This document shows, piece after piece, positions 4,549 to 23,289 of a DNA stretch of 27,503 nt. The DNA lies in the IMG/VR virus record IMGVR_UViG_3300025154_000334, positions 1 to 27,503 of that record. One strand, 5' to 3'. Under the pieces are notes generated by a model that saw only the letters and a list, made by a program, of their open reading frames with translations, did not search any database and was not told the DNA's origin. The DNA comes from a virus. Made by a program: the position numbers and the translations under genes. Numbering within the stretch: position 1 is the stretch's first letter; the number at the start of each line of letters is the position of its first letter.

Positions 4549-5504
4549 CACTTTCTCCCTTTAAAAATCTTGGCAGTATTTTCTAATACCAGAACATCGG
4601 CCCAATCAAGGCCATCCTTGTCGGGAATATAAACTGACACCAGAAGGTCGCGGTGCTTTGGCGATGTCATTATCCTGTTTGCCAGAGTGTACGCTGCACG
4701 TTGACCAGCGTAATTTTTATCATTGTCGCCGAAGATATAGAGATGAACAACCCCAGGCGGTGGTTCAAATCCAACCAGCAGGGAAGATGTCAGCGTTGCC
4801 CAGGTTGGAATACCTGTCTGCTCACTTGCTGCCAACATTGTCTCCACCCCCTCCCCAATCCCGAGCCTGTTGTCTGCAGGGTGTAATCGGATAGCCCCGC
4901 CGAGCATCTTTTTCAGGGCAGGTAGAAACCGCTTTGGTTCTTCCAGGTCCATTTTCTTTCCATCTTCCGTGATGAACGTTTCATGAATAGTGATTCCTTG
5001 GTTGTCAGGCCCCATAAAAACACCCAACATGGCATGTTCTTTTTTTCTTGTTTCAGTACACCAGCACTGGCTTGTGTAGCGCAGAGATGATGGAATTTTG
5101 GTGATGCCACGACCAACCAAATACTTCCATGCCGGATCTCCCGGCTTTACCGGCGCTGAATTGAGAAATAACGCCCGCAGGTTTTCTGGTGATGCCTTCG
5201 CCTGAACCGACGATGTACGAATTTCACACTTGTGTATTATTTTACGAACCTCATAAGCAGCCTCTGGGAGGGTGAGGTTGAAGAATTTCATCACCATTCC
5301 CCAACCGTCACCACCTCCGCAGTACGTACAGATCCACGACCCGGTTCCTTCCAGGTCATCGAACCGAAATGGCTTTGACTTGCCAGGTTTCTTACACAAG
5401 GGGCAGTCAACATGGCGACCATCACCAACATCAATACCGAGGTTGGAAAAAATGTCAACCCAGCGCCCAATACAGTCCGATTTGAGATAATCAAACTGTG
5501 ACAT
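4548..5504 (-). CDS. Phage DNA primase (zinc ribbon plus Toprim)
   Basis: 318 residues from ATG 5504 (GGAGGGGCA upstream). A zinc ribbon with Cys34-x2-Cys37 and Cys59-x2-Cys62 sits at the N-terminus and should recognise the template. A Toprim domain follows, with the conserved Glu in Gly-Ile-Gly-Glu-Gly-Val-Glu-Thr (about 218) and Phe-Gly-Asp-Asn-Asp at 258-262 for Mg2+. This is the layout of phage primases that make RNA primers at the fork. No helicase domain is fused; the SF2 helicase of the same operon is separate. Its start overlaps the HNH gene by 14 bases. Confidence 0.88.
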   Translation of the reverse strand: MSQFDYLKSDCIGRWVDIFSNLGIDVGDGRHVDCPLCKKPGKSKPFRFDDLEGTGSWICTYCGGGDGWGMVMKFFNLTLPEAAYEVRKIIHKCEIRTSSVQAKASPENLRALFLNSAPVKPGDPAWKYLVGRGITKIPSSLRYTSQCWCTETRKKEHAMLGVFMGPDNQGITIHETFITEDGKKMDLEEPKRFLPALKKMLGGAIRLHPADNRLGIGEGVETMLAASEQTGIPTWATLTSSLLVGFEPPPGVVHLYIFGDNDKNYAGQRAAYTLANRIMTSPKHRDLLVSVYIPDKDGLDWADVLVLENTAKIFKGRK

Positions 5505-6033
5505 TGCCCCTCCCCTGTGCGTCGATATATTGCTTCGCACTTGAGCTTGTGTCGCAATCTGGATATCCAAGGCATTGCTCTGCTGCATAGCGGGCGTATG
5601 CTGCCTCCAGTAGTGAATCATAATACCCCAGGTGTCTGTGTGAATTGTCAACGCGCATACCCACCTTCCATTTTTTCCCCCGCTGCTGATTAGGGGAAAC
5701 ACCCTTGATTCCCGATGTATTCCTTTTGTTCATTCCGCTGTTCCTGGTTTGGCACTGCCTTGAGGCTTCACGCAGATTCAACCGCCAGTTATGCCAACGC
5801 ACGCGGTCAATATGATCTACCGTAGTTTCGGGTAGATAACCATCGGTATAGAGGATCGCCAGTCGGTGGGCATAATGATTCTTTCCGTTTATTCTTATCA
5901 CAACGTATGCACTATTGTCTAAACACCCAGCTATATCACCGACGTTCCTGCCAGATCCGGCCTCTATCCACGTAAAAATCCCAGTTTCTGAATTGTAGTC
6001 CAACACCTCCTTAAGCCGTTCCTGTGTAATCAC
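5491..6033 (-). CDS. Free-standing AP2/HNH endonuclease, copy 2
   Basis: 180 residues. The start is GTG at 6033 (AAGGAGGGTAA upstream) and shares GTGA with the previous stop. The HNH core (Tyr-Ala-His-Arg-Leu-Ala, Val-Asp-His-Ile-Asp, Asn-Leu-Arg-Glu-Ala) and the AP2-like part (Ser-Gly-Ile-Lys-Gly-Val-Ser) are complete. The AP2 strand region is slightly longer than in the other copies (an extra Lys-Lys). It sits directly before the primase gene, a common target area for homing enzymes. Confidence 0.9.
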   Translation of the reverse strand: MITQERLKEVLDYNSETGIFTWIEAGSGRNVGDIAGCLDNSAYVVIRINGKNHYAHRLAILYTDGYLPETTVDHIDRVRWHNWRLNLREASRQCQTRNSGMNKRNTSGIKGVSPNQQRGKKWKVGMRVDNSHRHLGYYDSLLEAAYARYAAEQCLGYPDCDTSSSAKQYIDAQGRGNVTV

Positions 6034-9063: not shown

Positions 9064-9591
9064 ATGGTTGGCGCTATTAGAAAACACGGGCTCACCCTTG
9101 AAAGGGTTCGTGAACTTCTTGAATACAATGAAGAAACTGGTGATATTATATGGAGGATTCGTGTCACCAGTACGGTCCCAGCTGGCGCTATTGCTGGTGG
9201 CCTTAATAATGGGTATATTTCCATAAGTATCGATAATATATCGTATTATGCCCATCATATAGCGTGGTTTTTAAAAACCGGGAAACCGCCAAGCGGGAGA
9301 ATTGATCACAGAAATGGGAAGAAGAACGATAATAGGTGGAATAATCTTCGCGAGGCAACGCATAGCCAAAATAAAATGAATATGCCAGAGAGGTGTGATA
9401 ATAGATCTGGATTTAAAGGGGTCACTGTTTCTGGAAAGAAGTTCAAGGCTCAGATTTGTGCCGATGGTGTTATTTATTATCTTGGGCGATTTGATACTCC
9501 AGAGCAGGCAAGTGATGCATATAAAAAGAAGTCCCTTGAAATCCATGGTGACTTCTCTTTTTACGCCAGAGATAACCAGGAGGGAATATGA
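9064..9591 (+). CDS. AP2/HNH endonuclease, divergent copy 3
   Basis: 175 residues from ATG 9064 with AAGGAGGGAAAT upstream. The HNH core (Tyr-Tyr-Ala-His-His-Ile-Ala, Ile-Asp-His-Arg-Asn-Gly, Asn-Leu-Arg-Glu-Ala-Thr) and AP2-like segment (Ser-Gly-Phe-Lys-Gly-Val-Thr, Leu-Gly-Arg-Phe) are complete. It differs from the other copies: no Trp-His-Asn-Trp segment and no Cys-Leu-Gly-Phe-Gln-Asp-Cys ending. Its sequence is also more AT-rich than its neighbours. It probably arrived separately. It is first in the rightward operon and overlaps ninB by 4 bases. Confidence 0.9.
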   Translation: MVGAIRKHGLTLERVRELLEYNEETGDIIWRIRVTSTVPAGAIAGGLNNGYISISIDNISYYAHHIAWFLKTGKPPSGRIDHRNGKKNDNRWNNLREATHSQNKMNMPERCDNRSGFKGVTVSGKKFKAQICADGVIYYLGRFDTPEQASDAYKKKSLEIHGDFSFYARDNQEGI

Positions 9592-11125: not shown

Positions 11126-11746
11126 ATGATTATTATTGACGTTGAGCAAGGAACACCGGGTTGGTTTGCCGCACGCCTGGGGAGGCCGTCAGCGAGTCGT
11201 TTTTCTGAGATCTATACCAATACCGGGAAGGAGTCGAAAAGCCGGGAAAGGTACCTTTACGAGTTAGCCGGGGAGCGGATCTCTGGCATGATGGACGTGG
11301 GGTACAAAAACGGCTATATGGATCGCGGGAATACTCTGGAGGAGGAGGCCCGCAGCACGTTTGAATTTGTCGAGGGGGTCGAGGTTATAAGGACTGGCTT
11401 TTGCCTTGATGACAGCGAGTTATTCGGCTGCTCGCCGGATGGTTTGGTTTATAGCGATGGCATCTTAATGGCTGGGCTAGAAATCAAATGCAAGAATCTC
11501 GCACTGCATTGCGAGTGCCTGCTGAAAGATCAGGTTCCAACAACCCATATGGCGCAGATCCAGGGTGGTATGATGGTCACCGGCGCGACAATATGGTATT
11601 TTATGTCGTTTTTTCCGGGAGTTGCTCCGTTTATAAAAAAAGTCCATAGGAATGAGACGTATATTACAGGCCTGCGGACCTACTTGCTGTCGTTCTGCAG
11701 TGAACTGGATAAGATCGAGAAAATGGTGCGGGGGTATGGAAAATGA
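11126..11746 (+). CDS. YqaJ-type viral recombinase exonuclease
   Basis: 206 residues from ATG 11126 (GGGGAGCGC upstream); the frame opens earlier, inside the terminator. The lambda-exonuclease/YqaJ fold signature is visible: Gly-Thr-Pro-Gly-Trp-Phe-Ala-Ala-Arg-Leu-Gly (9-19), Gly-Asn-x-Leu-Glu-Glu-Glu-Ala (68-75), Ser-Pro-Asp-Gly (103-106) and Leu-Glu-Ile-Lys-Cys-Lys (118-123), giving the Asp, Glu and Lys of the PD-(D/E)xK active site. It resects one strand of duplex DNA for the annealing protein. It overlaps the following HNH gene by ATGA. Confidence 0.9.
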   Translation: MIIIDVEQGTPGWFAARLGRPSASRFSEIYTNTGKESKSRERYLYELAGERISGMMDVGYKNGYMDRGNTLEEEARSTFEFVEGVEVIRTGFCLDDSELFGCSPDGLVYSDGILMAGLEIKCKNLALHCECLLKDQVPTTHMAQIQGGMMVTGATIWYFMSFFPGVAPFIKKVHRNETYITGLRTYLLSFCSELDKIEKMVRGYGK

Positions 11747-12273
11747 TCACACAAGAACGGCTTAAAGAAGTTCTGGATTATAACCAGGAAACCGGTATTT
11801 TTACGTGGAAGGAGTCGGCAGGGCCTGCCGCAGCCGGTGCGGAGGCTGGGAGTCCTCACGTGAAGGGGTATATTCAGATCGGGATTGACGGCAAGCTCTA
11901 CAAGGCCCACCGATTGGCCATTCTCTATGCTGACGGTTATATGCCCGAAAACACGGTAGACCATATCGACCGGGTTCCATGGCATAATTGGCGGTTGAAC
12001 CTGCGTGAGGCCACACAACAGTGCCAGACCAGGAATTGCTGTGTGAATAAGAACAACACATCGGGAATAAAAGGGGTTTCTTGGTACAAAGCGGCTGGCA
12101 AGTGGCGTGCCGATATCATGGTTGATAGAAGGCAGAAACACCTGGGCTTATTCGGAAATCTCTTCGAAGCGGCTTGCGCTCGTTATGCAGCCGAACAGTG
12201 TTTGGGGTTCCAAGATTGTGATGTAAACTCCAGTGCAAGGAAGTATATAAAAGAACCTGGGAGAACTGTGTAA
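11743..12273 (+). CDS. Free-standing AP2/HNH endonuclease, copy 4
   Basis: 176 residues. HNH core: Tyr-Lys-Ala-His-Arg-Leu-Ala, Val-Asp-His-Ile-Asp-Arg-Val-Pro-Trp-His-Asn-Trp, Asn-Leu-Arg-Glu-Ala. The AP2-like domain runs from Ser-Gly-Ile-Lys-Gly-Val-Ser-Trp onward. It ends Cys-Leu-Gly-Phe-Gln-Asp-Cys-Asp, like copies 1, 5 and 6. It is tied to its neighbours by ATGA at the start and TAATG at the end, so it sits in the operon without cutting either gene. Confidence 0.92.
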   Translation: MITQERLKEVLDYNQETGIFTWKESAGPAAAGAEAGSPHVKGYIQIGIDGKLYKAHRLAILYADGYMPENTVDHIDRVPWHNWRLNLREATQQCQTRNCCVNKNNTSGIKGVSWYKAAGKWRADIMVDRRQKHLGLFGNLFEAACARYAAEQCLGFQDCDVNSSARKYIKEPGRTV

Positions 12274-17392: not shown

Positions 17393-17494
17393 GATGGTGG
17401 ATCTCGGCACAATCCTGGTGGGTCTTCTCCGGATGATTCATTTCCCGAGCCACCCCCAGGTATGAATGGAACCGGCGAAGATGTTCCATTCTAG
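17393..17494 (+). pseudogene. In-frame C-terminal tail of ssb beyond the TAA
   Basis: From 17393 the ssb frame encodes 33 residues rich in Gly, Ser, Pro and Asp, ending Gly-Glu-Asp-Val-Pro-Phe and a TAG at 17492. That is the layout of an SSB tail: a flexible linker, then an acidic tip like Asp-Asp-Asp-Ile-Pro-Phe. The only thing separating it from the OB domain is one stop codon, which one base change (CAA to TAA) would explain. A recent nonsense change, sequencing error, or readthrough are all possible. Confidence 0.85.
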
Positions 17495-17522
17495 ATTCCA
17501 GAAACCGAGAAGAGGTGAGTCG

Positions 17523-18059
17523 ATGATCACACAGAAACGGCTTAATGAGGTATTGGATTACAACCCGGAAACTGGGATTTTTGTGTGGATCGAATCACCG
17601 GGAGGAAACGCTCCAGCTGGTTCGGAGGCTGGTTGTTTCGATACTCATGGGTATATTGTTATTCGGGTTGACGGTGTACTGTATAAGGCCCATCGGCTGG
17701 CCATTCTTTATGTGGATGGCTATCTACCTGAAAACACCGTCGACCATGTCGACAGAGTCCCATGGCACAATTGGCGATCCAATCTGCGCGAGGCCTCTAT
17801 GCAATGCCAGGGGCGGAATTGCAGCATGATGAAAAATAACCGCTCTGGCGTGAAAGGGGTGGCGTGGGATGGTTTTAATGCTGGGTGGAAGGCTTATATC
17901 ACGGTTGATGGCAAGCATAAGCACCTTGGGAGGTTTGATACCCTTCTCGACGCCGCATATACCCGGTTCGCAGCAGAACAGTGTCTCGGTTTCCAGGACT
18001 GCGATGCCAACTCAAGCGCATTGGCTTTTATCCGTGTAAGCCTTAATAATGGGAGGTGA
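17523..18059 (+). CDS. Free-standing AP2/HNH endonuclease, copy 5
   Basis: 178 residues from ATG 17523 (AGAGGTGAGTCG upstream); the frame opens at 17466 but the conserved start Met-Ile-Thr-Gln fixes this one. HNH core Tyr-Lys-Ala-His-Arg-Leu-Ala, Val-Asp-His-Val-Asp and Asn-Leu-Arg-Glu-Ala; AP2 part Ser-Gly-Val-Lys-Gly-Val-Ala-Trp; ending Cys-Leu-Gly-Phe-Gln-Asp-Cys. It begins 28 bases after the end of the SSB tail frame, so it lies right behind ssb. Confidence 0.92.
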   Translation: MITQKRLNEVLDYNPETGIFVWIESPGGNAPAGSEAGCFDTHGYIVIRVDGVLYKAHRLAILYVDGYLPENTVDHVDRVPWHNWRSNLREASMQCQGRNCSMMKNNRSGVKGVAWDGFNAGWKAYITVDGKHKHLGRFDTLLDAAYTRFAAEQCLGFQDCDANSSALAFIRVSLNNGR

Positions 18060-18558: not shown

Positions 18559-19101
18559 ATGATTACCCGGGAGCGGCTTAAGGAGGTACTGGACTATAAT
18601 GCAGAGACTGGGGTTTTCCGGTGGAGGGTGCCATCTGGGAATTCATCTGCCGGTTCTGAGGCTGGGAGTTCTGACGGTAAGGAAGGGTATATTCTCATTG
18701 GGATCGACGGCAGGCTCTACAGGGCTCACCGTCTCGCTATTCTTTATACTGACGGCTATCTACCAGAAAACACTGTTGATCATAGGGATAGGATTCCGTG
18801 GCACAACTGGCGAGACAACCTCCGCGAGGCATCCTATCAGTGCCAGATGAGAAACTGCGGGATGCTGAAGAATAATACCTCCGGGGTAAAAGGCGTATGT
18901 TGGAACAAAATGGCAGGTAAGTGGAAGGCCCGGATAACGGTTAACGGGAGGGAGAAAAACCTTGGTTATTATGATTCTCTCTTGGATGCCGCTTTCGTCC
19001 GGTTCGCTGCAGAGCAGTGCTTGGGGTTTCAAGACTGCGACGCCAACTCAAGTGCGAAAATGTATATCGACGGGGAGGTAAGGTATGAAGGTAAAAAATA
19101 A
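18559..19101 (+). CDS. Free-standing AP2/HNH endonuclease, copy 6
   Basis: 180 residues, AAGGAGAAATGA upstream. HNH core Tyr-Arg-Ala-His-Arg-Leu-Ala, Val-Asp-His-Arg-Asp-Arg-Ile-Pro-Trp-His-Asn-Trp, Asn-Leu-Arg-Glu-Ala; AP2 part Ser-Gly-Val-Lys-Gly-Val-Cys-Trp; ending Cys-Leu-Gly-Phe-Gln-Asp-Cys. It is only 500 bases after copy 5 and clearly related to it in protein, but many codons differ, so it is not a fresh duplicate. The end overlaps the next gene by 17 bases. Confidence 0.92.
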   Translation: MITRERLKEVLDYNAETGVFRWRVPSGNSSAGSEAGSSDGKEGYILIGIDGRLYRAHRLAILYTDGYLPENTVDHRDRIPWHNWRDNLREASYQCQMRNCGMLKNNTSGVKGVCWNKMAGKWKARITVNGREKNLGYYDSLLDAAFVRFAAEQCLGFQDCDANSSAKMYIDGEVRYEGKK

Positions 19102-20976: not shown

Positions 20977-21366
20977 TTATTCAACTACGTAATAGTCGCC
21001 GCCGTCTTTCGTCCAGCCGTCGTGCAGCATGGCCTGGTCACCGGACACCTGTTTCAGCGTTCCAATGGCTTCCAGAGTGCCGCCATCCAGGAAGAGAAGG
21101 TTCGCGGTCCTCTTGCCATTCTTGGGCCGGTTCAGGATCAGGATCGATTCCTGGTTGTGCTTCCGACAGAGGGCCGTGACGCAGGCGCTTGTGGTCCCTC
21201 CCCAGAGCGCCACATAACTGGTTTCCTGCTGGCCCTTATAGGAGCCGGTGACCTTCTTGGTTGTGGAGCCGATCTGCTTCTCGACATACTCCTGCTCCTT
21301 CTTGCCGAGCTGGGTGTTGACGGCGAAGATGGCCAGGGCCGATTGTGACTTCAAGAATCTTTTCAT
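20977..21366 (-). CDS. Hypothetical protein
   Basis: 129 residues from ATG 21366 (CAGGAGGCGCTGGT upstream, ATGA overlap). The N-terminal 20 residues are basic then hydrophobic (Ala-Leu-Ala-Ile-Phe-Ala-Val) but lack a clear cleavage site. The rest is mixed with many Gly and Thr and ends Asp-Tyr-Tyr-Val-Val-Glu. No family recognised. Confidence 0.55.
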   Translation of the reverse strand: MKRFLKSQSALAIFAVNTQLGKKEQEYVEKQIGSTTKKVTGSYKGQQETSYVALWGGTTSACVTALCRKHNQESILILNRPKNGKRTANLLFLDGGTLEAIGTLKQVSGDQAMLHDGWTKDGGDYYVVE

Positions 21367-21524: not shown

Positions 21525-21728
21525 TCAGATCCCCGAGTTGAAGGCTTTGCGAAGACCGGCAAACCGGAATTGAACGAGGCCGTGCTCATTCGAATCCTTA
21601 TTCATTGGCTTGCCATCCCACGGTGAGGAAAAGTCATTGATGATGAAATCCTTACCTGCGTTCCAATCCTCAAGGACTGCTGCTTTGCTTTTGTAGTCGC
21701 GCCCGTAGGCCGGTGTCAAGGTAATCAT
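21525..21728 (-). CDS. Small phage protein with Tyr-Gly-Arg-Asp-Tyr motif
   Basis: 67 residues from ATG 21728 (AAGGAGAATAGCT upstream). The order Thr-Pro-Ala-Tyr-Gly-Arg-Asp-Tyr-Lys-Ser-Lys, then Asp-Trp-Asn-Ala-Gly-Lys-Asp-Phe-Ile and Pro-Trp-Asp-Gly-Lys-Pro, resembles a widespread family of tiny phage proteins of unknown function; the assignment is from memory of the pattern. It follows a 209-base structured gap. Confidence 0.65.
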   Translation of the reverse strand: MITLTPAYGRDYKSKAAVLEDWNAGKDFIINDFSSPWDGKPMNKDSNEHGLVQFRFAGLRKAFNSGI

Positions 21729-21937
21729 AGCTATTCTCCTTTTTGTTTGATGGTTGTTTGATAAGAGTGCCGGTCTTTCCCGGCTGCCAGGCCCTGTTAC
21801 TCAACAGGTAAACGCGTTAATAGCGGAGGATTCGCACCCCTTTTGCTACCAAGTTTCGCCACATAGCAGAATCGAACTGCACACCTCTTTGGCTTGACTG
21901 CCCACGACCGAGCCCCTTGAGGCCCGGCTATTGGAGG
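21729..21937 (-). other. Structured intercistronic region with repeat block
   Basis: 209 bases without a clear gene. On the minus strand it holds, in order: a conserved block (21931-21890, see findings), a T-arm-like hairpin GCAG-TTCGATT-CTGC (about 21879-21865), a second T-arm-like hairpin near 21842-21828, CCTGTT-GAGT-AACAGG (21808-21793) and GCCGG-GAAAGA-CCGGC (21784-21769). An open frame runs from the block to TAA at 21799-21797 but has no normal start. It may be an RNA regulator, a tRNA remnant, or a decayed gene. Confidence 0.45.
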
Positions 21938-22102
21938 TCAAAAACCTTTCAGGATTTCTGCCAGAGGCCCGTTATACAGGGCCACCAGGCGCTTCGGGTG
22001 TTTCTTGGCCATGCGGACAGCCAAGACCATCATGAACCGGCCAGTTTCAAAGCCAACACCGTGGCCTGCGTCAGTCCACATCGTCATCACCATAAGCATC
22101 AT
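21938..22102 (-). CDS. Small hypothetical protein
   Basis: 54 residues from ATG 22102 (GGGGAGGGTCCGGT upstream, ATGA overlap). A Met-rich start (Met-Met-Leu-Met-Val-Met-Thr-Met-Trp) leads into a helical middle and a basic Lys-Lys-His-Pro-Lys-Arg-Leu segment. Function unknown. Confidence 0.55.
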   Translation of the reverse strand: MMLMVMTMWTDAGHGVGFETGRFMMVLAVRMAKKHPKRLVALYNGPLAEILKGF

Positions 22103-22351: not shown

Positions 22352-22537
22352 TCACCTCCTGATCAGATCGCAGCCGATATAGGCCTCTGCCACGTGAACG
22401 TATTCCCTCCCCATGTTCCAGACCAGGCCGGTGTCGATAAGCATCTGGAATAGGGTGGTGATTTCATCTTCGTCCATCATACCATTTTCGTAGTATGATA
22501 TCAATGTCGTGAGTTCTTTTTCGATTTTGCTTTCCAT
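22352..22537 (-). CDS. Small acidic phage protein
   Basis: 61 residues from ATG 22537 (GGAGGAACCAGT upstream), 37 bases inside the previous gene. The pattern Met-Asp-Glu-Asp-Glu-Ile-Thr-x-Leu-Phe-Gln-x-Leu-Ile-Asp-Thr-Gly-Leu-Val-Trp is shared with a common group of tiny phage proteins of unknown role. Entirely helical. It may bind a host protein. Confidence 0.65.
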   Translation of the reverse strand: MESKIEKELTTLISYYENGMMDEDEITTLFQMLIDTGLVWNMGREYVHVAEAYIGCDLIRR

Positions 22538-22944
22538 ACTGGTTCCTCCATTTTTTCGAATACCGCTTCACCATTGCTGAAATGACCGATCAGCCGATAG
22601 CGTCCGAAGACCTTGACGAAGTTGTTTTCAACCCGCTCCATGAATTTCACCGCCATGGGGGTGTTGGTTCCGCCCTTGGGGATCATCCAGATCGAGATCT
22701 GTCCGCAATACTCGCTCATGCCGACCCAGCAGAGTTTGTTATAGGCCAGTGCATGATACTCCCGGCCAATCCAGCGGTCGGTCTTAATGAACGACGGCCA
22801 GCGGCTCAGGACTTCAGCCTGGATGAATTCGCGAAGGTCGTCAAACCGGTCGCTGATATTGTCACAGGCATCTTCGTCATCCCAGTCATCCCAGATCTGA
22901 AAGGCTACCAGGCTATCCATTGGATACGCTACGCTTCTTGACAT
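22501..22944 (-). CDS. Hypothetical protein
   Basis: 147 residues from ATG 22944 (AAGGAGGTAGAGAT upstream). The frame is open back to ATG 23049, but no ribosome binding site precedes that start. An acidic Trp-Asp-Asp-Trp-Asp-Asp-Glu-Asp segment, a helical middle and strands such as Ile-Ser-Ile-Trp-Met-Ile-Pro-Lys suggest an alpha/beta fold; the end is basic. No family recognised. Confidence 0.6.
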   Translation of the reverse strand: MSRSVAYPMDSLVAFQIWDDWDDEDACDNISDRFDDLREFIQAEVLSRWPSFIKTDRWIGREYHALAYNKLCWVGMSEYCGQISIWMIPKGGTNTPMAVKFMERVENNFVKVFGRYRLIGHFSNGEAVFEKMEEPVWKAKSKKNSRH

Positions 22945-23055
22945 ATCTCTACCTCCTTGAGGTTGTTGAAAAAATCTTCCGCGATAATCTTCTGAGATTC
23001 CTGCGGTAGGTTTAACCGCCCATGACAAGGCCCCTTGAGGCCCTGCCATTGAATG
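22945..23055 (-). other. Intercistronic region with repeat block and three hairpins
   Basis: 111 bases. On the minus strand: the second copy of the conserved block (23049-23008), whose first part folds as GGCAGGGCC-loop-GGCCTTGTC (9 bp with two G-T pairs); then GCGGT-TAAACCT-ACCGC; then AATCT-CAGA-AGATT. The block is also the possible N-terminal extension of the 22944 gene. No other gene is visible here. Confidence 0.5.
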
Positions 23056-23289
23056 TTAAGACCGTGCTGCCATTTCCTTAATGCGACGGAATGCGATGTT
23101 CCAGGTGGAGCCCATACCGTAGAAGGATGGCCCGGACCCGGAGATCTCGGGGTGAGCCCAGCAGATAACCTGGACCCCTTCCTTGCTGACCTTGGTATCG
23201 TAATAGACCTGATAGCCAGGAAACTCGATCTCCATGGATACAAACCGTGCGATCTCGATGCTGGTCTTACTTCTCAGATAGGTTCTCAT
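23056..23289 (-). CDS. Small hypothetical protein
   Basis: 77 residues from ATG 23289 (TTGAGGAGCATATC upstream). Basic N-terminus, then strands Met-Glu-Ile-Glu-Phe-Pro-Gly-Tyr-Gln-Val-Tyr-Tyr and Val-Gln-Val-Ile-Cys-Trp-Ala-His-Pro-Glu, a Gly/Ser loop and a basic helix at the end. No family recognised. Confidence 0.55.
   Translation of the reverse strand: MRTYLRSKTSIEIARFVSMEIEFPGYQVYYDTKVSKEGVQVICWAHPEISGSGPSFYGMGSTWNIAFRRIKEMAARS

Follow-up and report, generated by a model that had tools for sequence, protein, structure and literature searches.

A duplicated block between short leftward phage genes, read as a candidate RNA hairpin, and the tRNA-like structured RNA beside one copy

The window examined in this study (27,503 nucleotides of viral DNA) contains two copies of a block, each following a short gene, that we interpret as an RNA hairpin in preference to a concealed peptide. 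The explanation that we favor, with slightly less than even confidence, is that both blocks are copies of one leftward-transcribed, intercistronic, cis-acting RNA hairpin that serves as a processing or stability site. Just behind one of the copies lies a structured RNA with tRNA-like features, which is more novel than the hairpin.

The two copies form a direct repeat of 51-52 nt that is 76% identical (21890-21941, copy 1; 23008-23059, copy 2), with 13 differences across 52 nt. This is the longest direct repeat in the 20-25.5 kb region scanned, and no third copy was found in the whole window. The original prediction described related blocks of 42 bases at 21890-21931 and 23008-23049 with ten differences, at positions 3, 6, 21, 22, 23, 27, 33, 36, 39 and 42. 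The relationship is borne out by BLAST within the 27.5-kb record (E 2.9e-6 for copy 2), and the differences, the minus-strand translations (IAGPQGARSWAVKP and MAGPQGALSWAVKP) and the plus-strand peptide of both copies (GLTAHDR/KAP-stop) are exactly as claimed. The coordinates of the 42-nt block are likewise exact, but its limits are too narrow. The repeat starts in the last codons of the upstream leftward open reading frame (ORF), whose stop codon (TGA in copy 1, TAA in copy 2) forms bases 2-4 of the repeat, and it also spans two codons behind the stop, where the differences are not at third positions. Both copies lie between genes on the same, leftward strand. The repeat copies and the ORFs around them are as follows.

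21894-21941, minus strand: hairpin repeat copy 1 (repeat, fold and pairing statistics)
21937-21941 with 21894-21898, minus strand: copy 1 lower stem, UUGAC/GUCAA, containing the UGA stop of the upstream ORF
21920-21931 with 21904-21915, minus strand: copy 1 upper stem, loop CAAG at 21916-21919
23012-23059, minus strand: hairpin repeat copy 2 (repeat, fold and pairing statistics)
23055-23059 with 23012-23016, minus strand: copy 2 lower stem, UUAAC/GUUAA, containing the UAA stop of the upstream ORF
23038-23049 with 23022-23033, minus strand: copy 2 upper stem, loop CAAG at 23034-23037
23056-23289, minus strand: 77-aa ORF, stop codon inside the copy 2 lower stem
22501-22944, minus strand: 147-aa ORF downstream of copy 2, with its own ribosome-binding site AAGGAGG
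21938-22102, minus strand: 54-aa ORF, stop codon inside the copy 1 lower stem
21525-21728, minus strand: 67-aa ORF that follows copy 1 and the structured RNA
20977-21366, minus strand: S-adenosylmethionine lyase-like gene (Pfam PF23780)

The leftward RNA of each copy folds into an imperfect hairpin of about 48 nt, with a 5-bp lower stem, an internal loop and a 12-bp upper stem. The tip, CCU(CAAG)GGG, is invariant between the copies, and two extra C-G pairs in the internal loop of copy 1 are both possible in copy 2 (one as U-G). Compared to shuffled sequence, the fold gave z-scores of -2.31 for copy 1 and -3.76 for copy 2 (66 nt), the latter reaching -4.47 with flanks (111 nt). Eight of the 13 differences fall inside the 17 pairs. 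They include two compensatory exchanges (C-G to A-U in the upper stem; G-C to A-U in the lower stem, where the stop codon is involved) and three or four changes of a single partner that leave the pair intact. The structure derived from copy 2 keeps 16 of 17 pairs in copy 1 (P 0.007 versus random substitution), while that derived from copy 1 keeps all 18 of its pairs in copy 2 (P 0.0005), and sliding the partners by 1-3 columns lowers pairing from 97% to 25-53%. A stable fold kept by compensatory change is thus found in both hairpins, in a comparison of two sequences only; the covariation count by itself falls short of significance for two rows, as 124 of 500 shuffles reach the same count. On the minus strand only one of the 17 pairs is broken (1+0), compared to four and three (4+3) on the plus strand, which argues for a constraint on the minus-strand RNA and not on the DNA.

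No relatives of the hairpin were found among 73 loci, 61 whole records, phage and plasmid collections, and IMG/VR pattern searches. The exact 14-nt tip has 53 matches in IMG/VR, several of them in collagen-like Gly-Pro-Gln-Gly coding runs, and the lower stem is absent from all 53. An intrinsic terminator was rejected, as no U-tract follows either hairpin. Conservation of the hairpin together with the 67-aa gene was also rejected, as neither the hairpin nor the structured RNA accompanies any of the relatives of this gene in 11 viral contigs.

The original prediction attributed the third-position pattern to selection on a peptide. Constraint on the block is supported, but the peptide is ranked behind pairing as its cause, and a short conserved peptide translated from the block now seems improbable. 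In favor of a peptide, third positions account for 8 of the 10 differences in the 42-nt block and for 8 of 13 across the full repeat; the bias in the block is non-random, with a best-block P of about 0.006 after correction for frame and block limits. There are also at most two residue changes in 14 codons (P of about 0.001 before correction). This bias is not accounted for by pairing alone, which counts against a pure hairpin reading, and neither a pairing null nor a codon null alone often yields both patterns; the two constraints are not mutually exclusive. Pairing is nevertheless placed first in our judgement, two sequences amounting to no proof, for several reasons. The non-third changes at 22 and 23, in the Arg/Leu codon, are those that keep the stem, each preserving a pair and 23 compensating 6. 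The constraint does not end at the stop codon, through which G-C is exchanged for A-U as a pair, and the lower stem covaries; pairing, unlike a peptide, also accounts for the strand asymmetry. The first codon is ATA rather than ATG in copy 1, and in copy 2 it is an ATG without a Shine-Dalgarno sequence; a ribosome-binding site is absent from both, and the two copies do not share the start signals of a short ORF. The plus-strand peptide is equally conserved and incompatible, and the three-base spacing of the differences fits two mutually exclusive readings, one per strand. Additionally, the frame of copy 1 runs into the T-arm RNA described below, and no relatives of the peptide were found by exact back-translation in IMG/VR or by tblastn in 50,697 phages, nor any with synonymous variation in viral contigs or phages. 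A loose likeness to the Ash-like peptides of phage immunity RNAs had also been suggested. The block shares with such RNAs (P4-type, Ash-like) that it is a short phage RNA with a possible small frame; however, copy 1 lacks a start codon, neither copy has a ribosome-binding site, no immunity genes or relatives were found, and this idea is unsupported.

Three further explanations were weighed against the processing hairpin. It is unlikely, in our estimate, that the hairpin is an RNA operator, with its invariant CCUCAAGG tip serving as the binding site of a phage or host protein that either blocks translation or influences antitermination in the leftward operon. The two copies share the 14-nt tip GGGCCTCAAGGGGC exactly despite differing flanks, and CCUCAAGG also overlaps the 147-aa gene's ribosome-binding site, with the potential to pair as ACCUC-AAG-GAGGU; however, Shine-Dalgarno complementarity goes some way to dictating the shared octamer, which is present at only one of the downstream genes, and there is no candidate binding protein. 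A DNA-level element (an operator, or a recombination or replication site) or a functionless, drifting duplicate is likewise unlikely. Such a reading would suit the inverted-repeat character and the restriction to two copies without relatives, but G-U pairs tie the fold to the minus-strand RNA, the differences keep pairing, and both copies are positioned precisely at a stop codon. Stop-codon readthrough, which at copy 2 would fuse the 77-aa and 147-aa proteins, is very improbable. Both copies keep a stop codon with the hairpin 6-9 nt behind it, a recoding-like spacing, the codons behind the stop show third-position bias, and at copy 2 the frame stays open for 37 codons into the 147-aa gene. Against this, an open frame of that length has a chance of about 17%, the copy 2 stop is UAA, the tightest stop, and readthrough from copy 1 would run into the structured RNA in a frame other than that of the next gene.

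On this favored reading the hairpin belongs to a familiar kind of cis-acting RNA element, and the mechanism that follows is a candidate. Each copy starts within a gene's stop codon and precedes the following gene or RNA. There it may function in cis, as a site of processing or stabilization between cistrons, which a double-strand-specific factor such as host RNase III would most likely cut or bind. At copy 1 the hairpin would also define the 5' flank of the tRNA-like RNA, whose start lies 11 nt further on. Termination of a ribosome at the stop codon would melt the lower stem, and processing and translation of the preceding gene could in this way be coupled. In the T7 early region, repeated intercistronic hairpins are RNase III sites (R0.3-R1.1). 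The hairpins here resemble these sites in being repeated and imperfect, with two stems and an internal loop, between short genes that their order suggests are cotranscribed; they differ in having about 19 pairs rather than 20 or more, a stem on the short side for RNase III, which counts against this reading, and in a lower stem that overlaps the stop codon. The likeness is claimed for form, not for sequence, and cleavage here is putative. Judging from position, the simplest connection is that the hairpin is used twice in the operon, once before a gene and once before an RNA.

The leftward run of short genes starts near 23.8 kb, where a promoter-like site (23807-23779) is a consensus match only. 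The 77-aa ORF has no Pfam or PHROG match, and the 147-aa ORF has distant relatives in Alishewanella phages. Because the set includes a DUF7417 protein and an S-adenosylmethionine lyase-like protein, the latter likely an anti-restriction early gene product, it is likely an early, host-interaction region. The T3 early region likewise carries an S-adenosylmethionine lyase-like gene.

The structured RNA beside copy 1 comprises the following features.

21763-21884, minus strand: structured phage RNA, 11 nt downstream of copy 1 (nhmmer profile)
21866-21880, minus strand: T-arm-like hairpin 1
21847-21852, minus strand: UUGGUA D-loop-like stretch
21825-21840, minus strand: T-arm-like hairpin 2
21793-21808, minus strand: hairpin CCUGUU-GAGU-AACAGG
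21769-21784, minus strand: 3' hairpin GCCGG-GAAAGA-CCGGC

The first relative of the copy 1 flank was a weak blastn match just behind tRNA-Cys in Cellulophaga phage phi19:3. Further members were found by gapped pattern scans of IMG/VR and GTDB contigs, giving a family alignment of nineteen sequences, window included. An nhmmer profile built without the window matches 21880-21765 at E 7.5e-16; under the covariance model, which has the window itself among its 19 rows, the window scores 84.6 bits. The alignment has five helices: T-arm 1, a long-range helix of 4 bp (columns 26-29 with 122-125), T-arm 2, a variable hairpin and a 3' hairpin (GNNNG-GAAAGA-CNNNC). Eighty-eight percent of the cells are paired, compared to 68% in shuffles and 32-52% when slid, with 96% pairing in the long-range helix and 100% in the 3' hairpin. 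Both-sided changes occur in 18 of 22 pairs, and double-change cells number 96 compared to 32 in shuffles. Members occur in unrelated phages and prophages (L014-L020, L022, L023, L025, L031, L036, L042, L054, L056, L063, L094 and L096). Inspection revealed no common neighbor among the genes beside them. Scanning 50 other records, nearly all of which hold the structured RNA or its 3' module, recovered the hairpin in none, so the hairpin was rejected as kin or as a conserved part of the RNA. No such RNA lies behind copy 2.

The RNA resembles phage tRNAs and tRNA-like RNAs in its T-arms with UUCRANU loops and its UUGGUA stretch, and several members adjoin tRNA genes; in this phage no tRNA gene adjoins the RNA. 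It departs from phage tRNAs in having a second T-arm, in lacking an anticodon arm, and in its covarying long-range helix and GAAAGA-loop 3' hairpin. ARAGORN found no tRNA or tmRNA match, and tRNA remnants were rejected, as low-threshold ARAGORN gave noise only. For the window and ten relatives, no Rfam 15 family was matched at gathering scores and a permissive threshold gave chance-level matches only. The RNA was not found in open-access literature matched by word and may be described elsewhere.

The 3' module alone (stem, UGACAG and GGAAAGAC hairpin) recurs in three annotated phages, in unannotated gaps or under a doubtful small ORF, and behind tRNA-Leu-like RNAs.

1474-1528: 3' module in phage mEp390 (L097)
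974-1027: 3' module in phage Pokken (L098)
744-830: 3' module in phage BUCT708 (L100)

In BUCT708, about 250 nt contain several occurrences of GGAAAGACC, two of them immediately ahead of an ATG. The tRNA-Leu-like units (AGTCAGGTGGCGGAATNGGTAGACGC ... GGTTCGAATCCTGTCCTGACTAC; L028, L029, L033, L041, L044, L046, L050, L064, L065 and others) have a variable middle in place of the normal anticodon arm, are followed by the same stem and GACAG hairpin module as the structured RNA, and are often uncalled by ARAGORN. Large guide-like arrays of these units were considered and rejected, as most contigs have one or two units only.

We tentatively propose, as a possibility still well short of probable, that the RNA at copy 1 represents an undescribed, widespread phage class with a double imitation of the tRNA elbow (two T-arms, D-loop-like UUGGUA) and a terminal GACAG/GAAAGA-loop hairpin module common to lambdoid, Bacteroidota-type and other phages, with the duplicated hairpin as its 5' processing signal here. 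A double T-arm RNA could mimic tRNA for EF-Tu, for tRNA-modifying or tRNA-processing enzymes, or for tRNA-sensing defences, and the family is readily testable because its helices covary strongly. Following the repeat exposed a structured RNA in phages of unrelated hosts that lacks an Rfam 15 entry. In addition, a pairing constraint can imitate the conservation pattern of third codon positions; two-copy patterns of this kind should therefore be folded before a peptide is called.

Two further observations concern the same phage and its relatives. Six ORFs share a 'RLKEVLDYNPETGIF...' start and an HNH/AP2-like body, and are probably a homing endonuclease family multiplied in one phage.

1624-2175 and 5491-6033, minus strand: HNH/AP2-like ORFs
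9064-9591, 11743-12273, 17466-18059 and 18559-19101, plus strand: HNH/AP2-like ORFs

Upstream of the 67-aa homologue in two related phages (L008 and L013), non-coding leaders carry repeats such as GTGTCTAGRAAAGCG and AGGGAAAGCTCTT, which are possibly another structured RNA.
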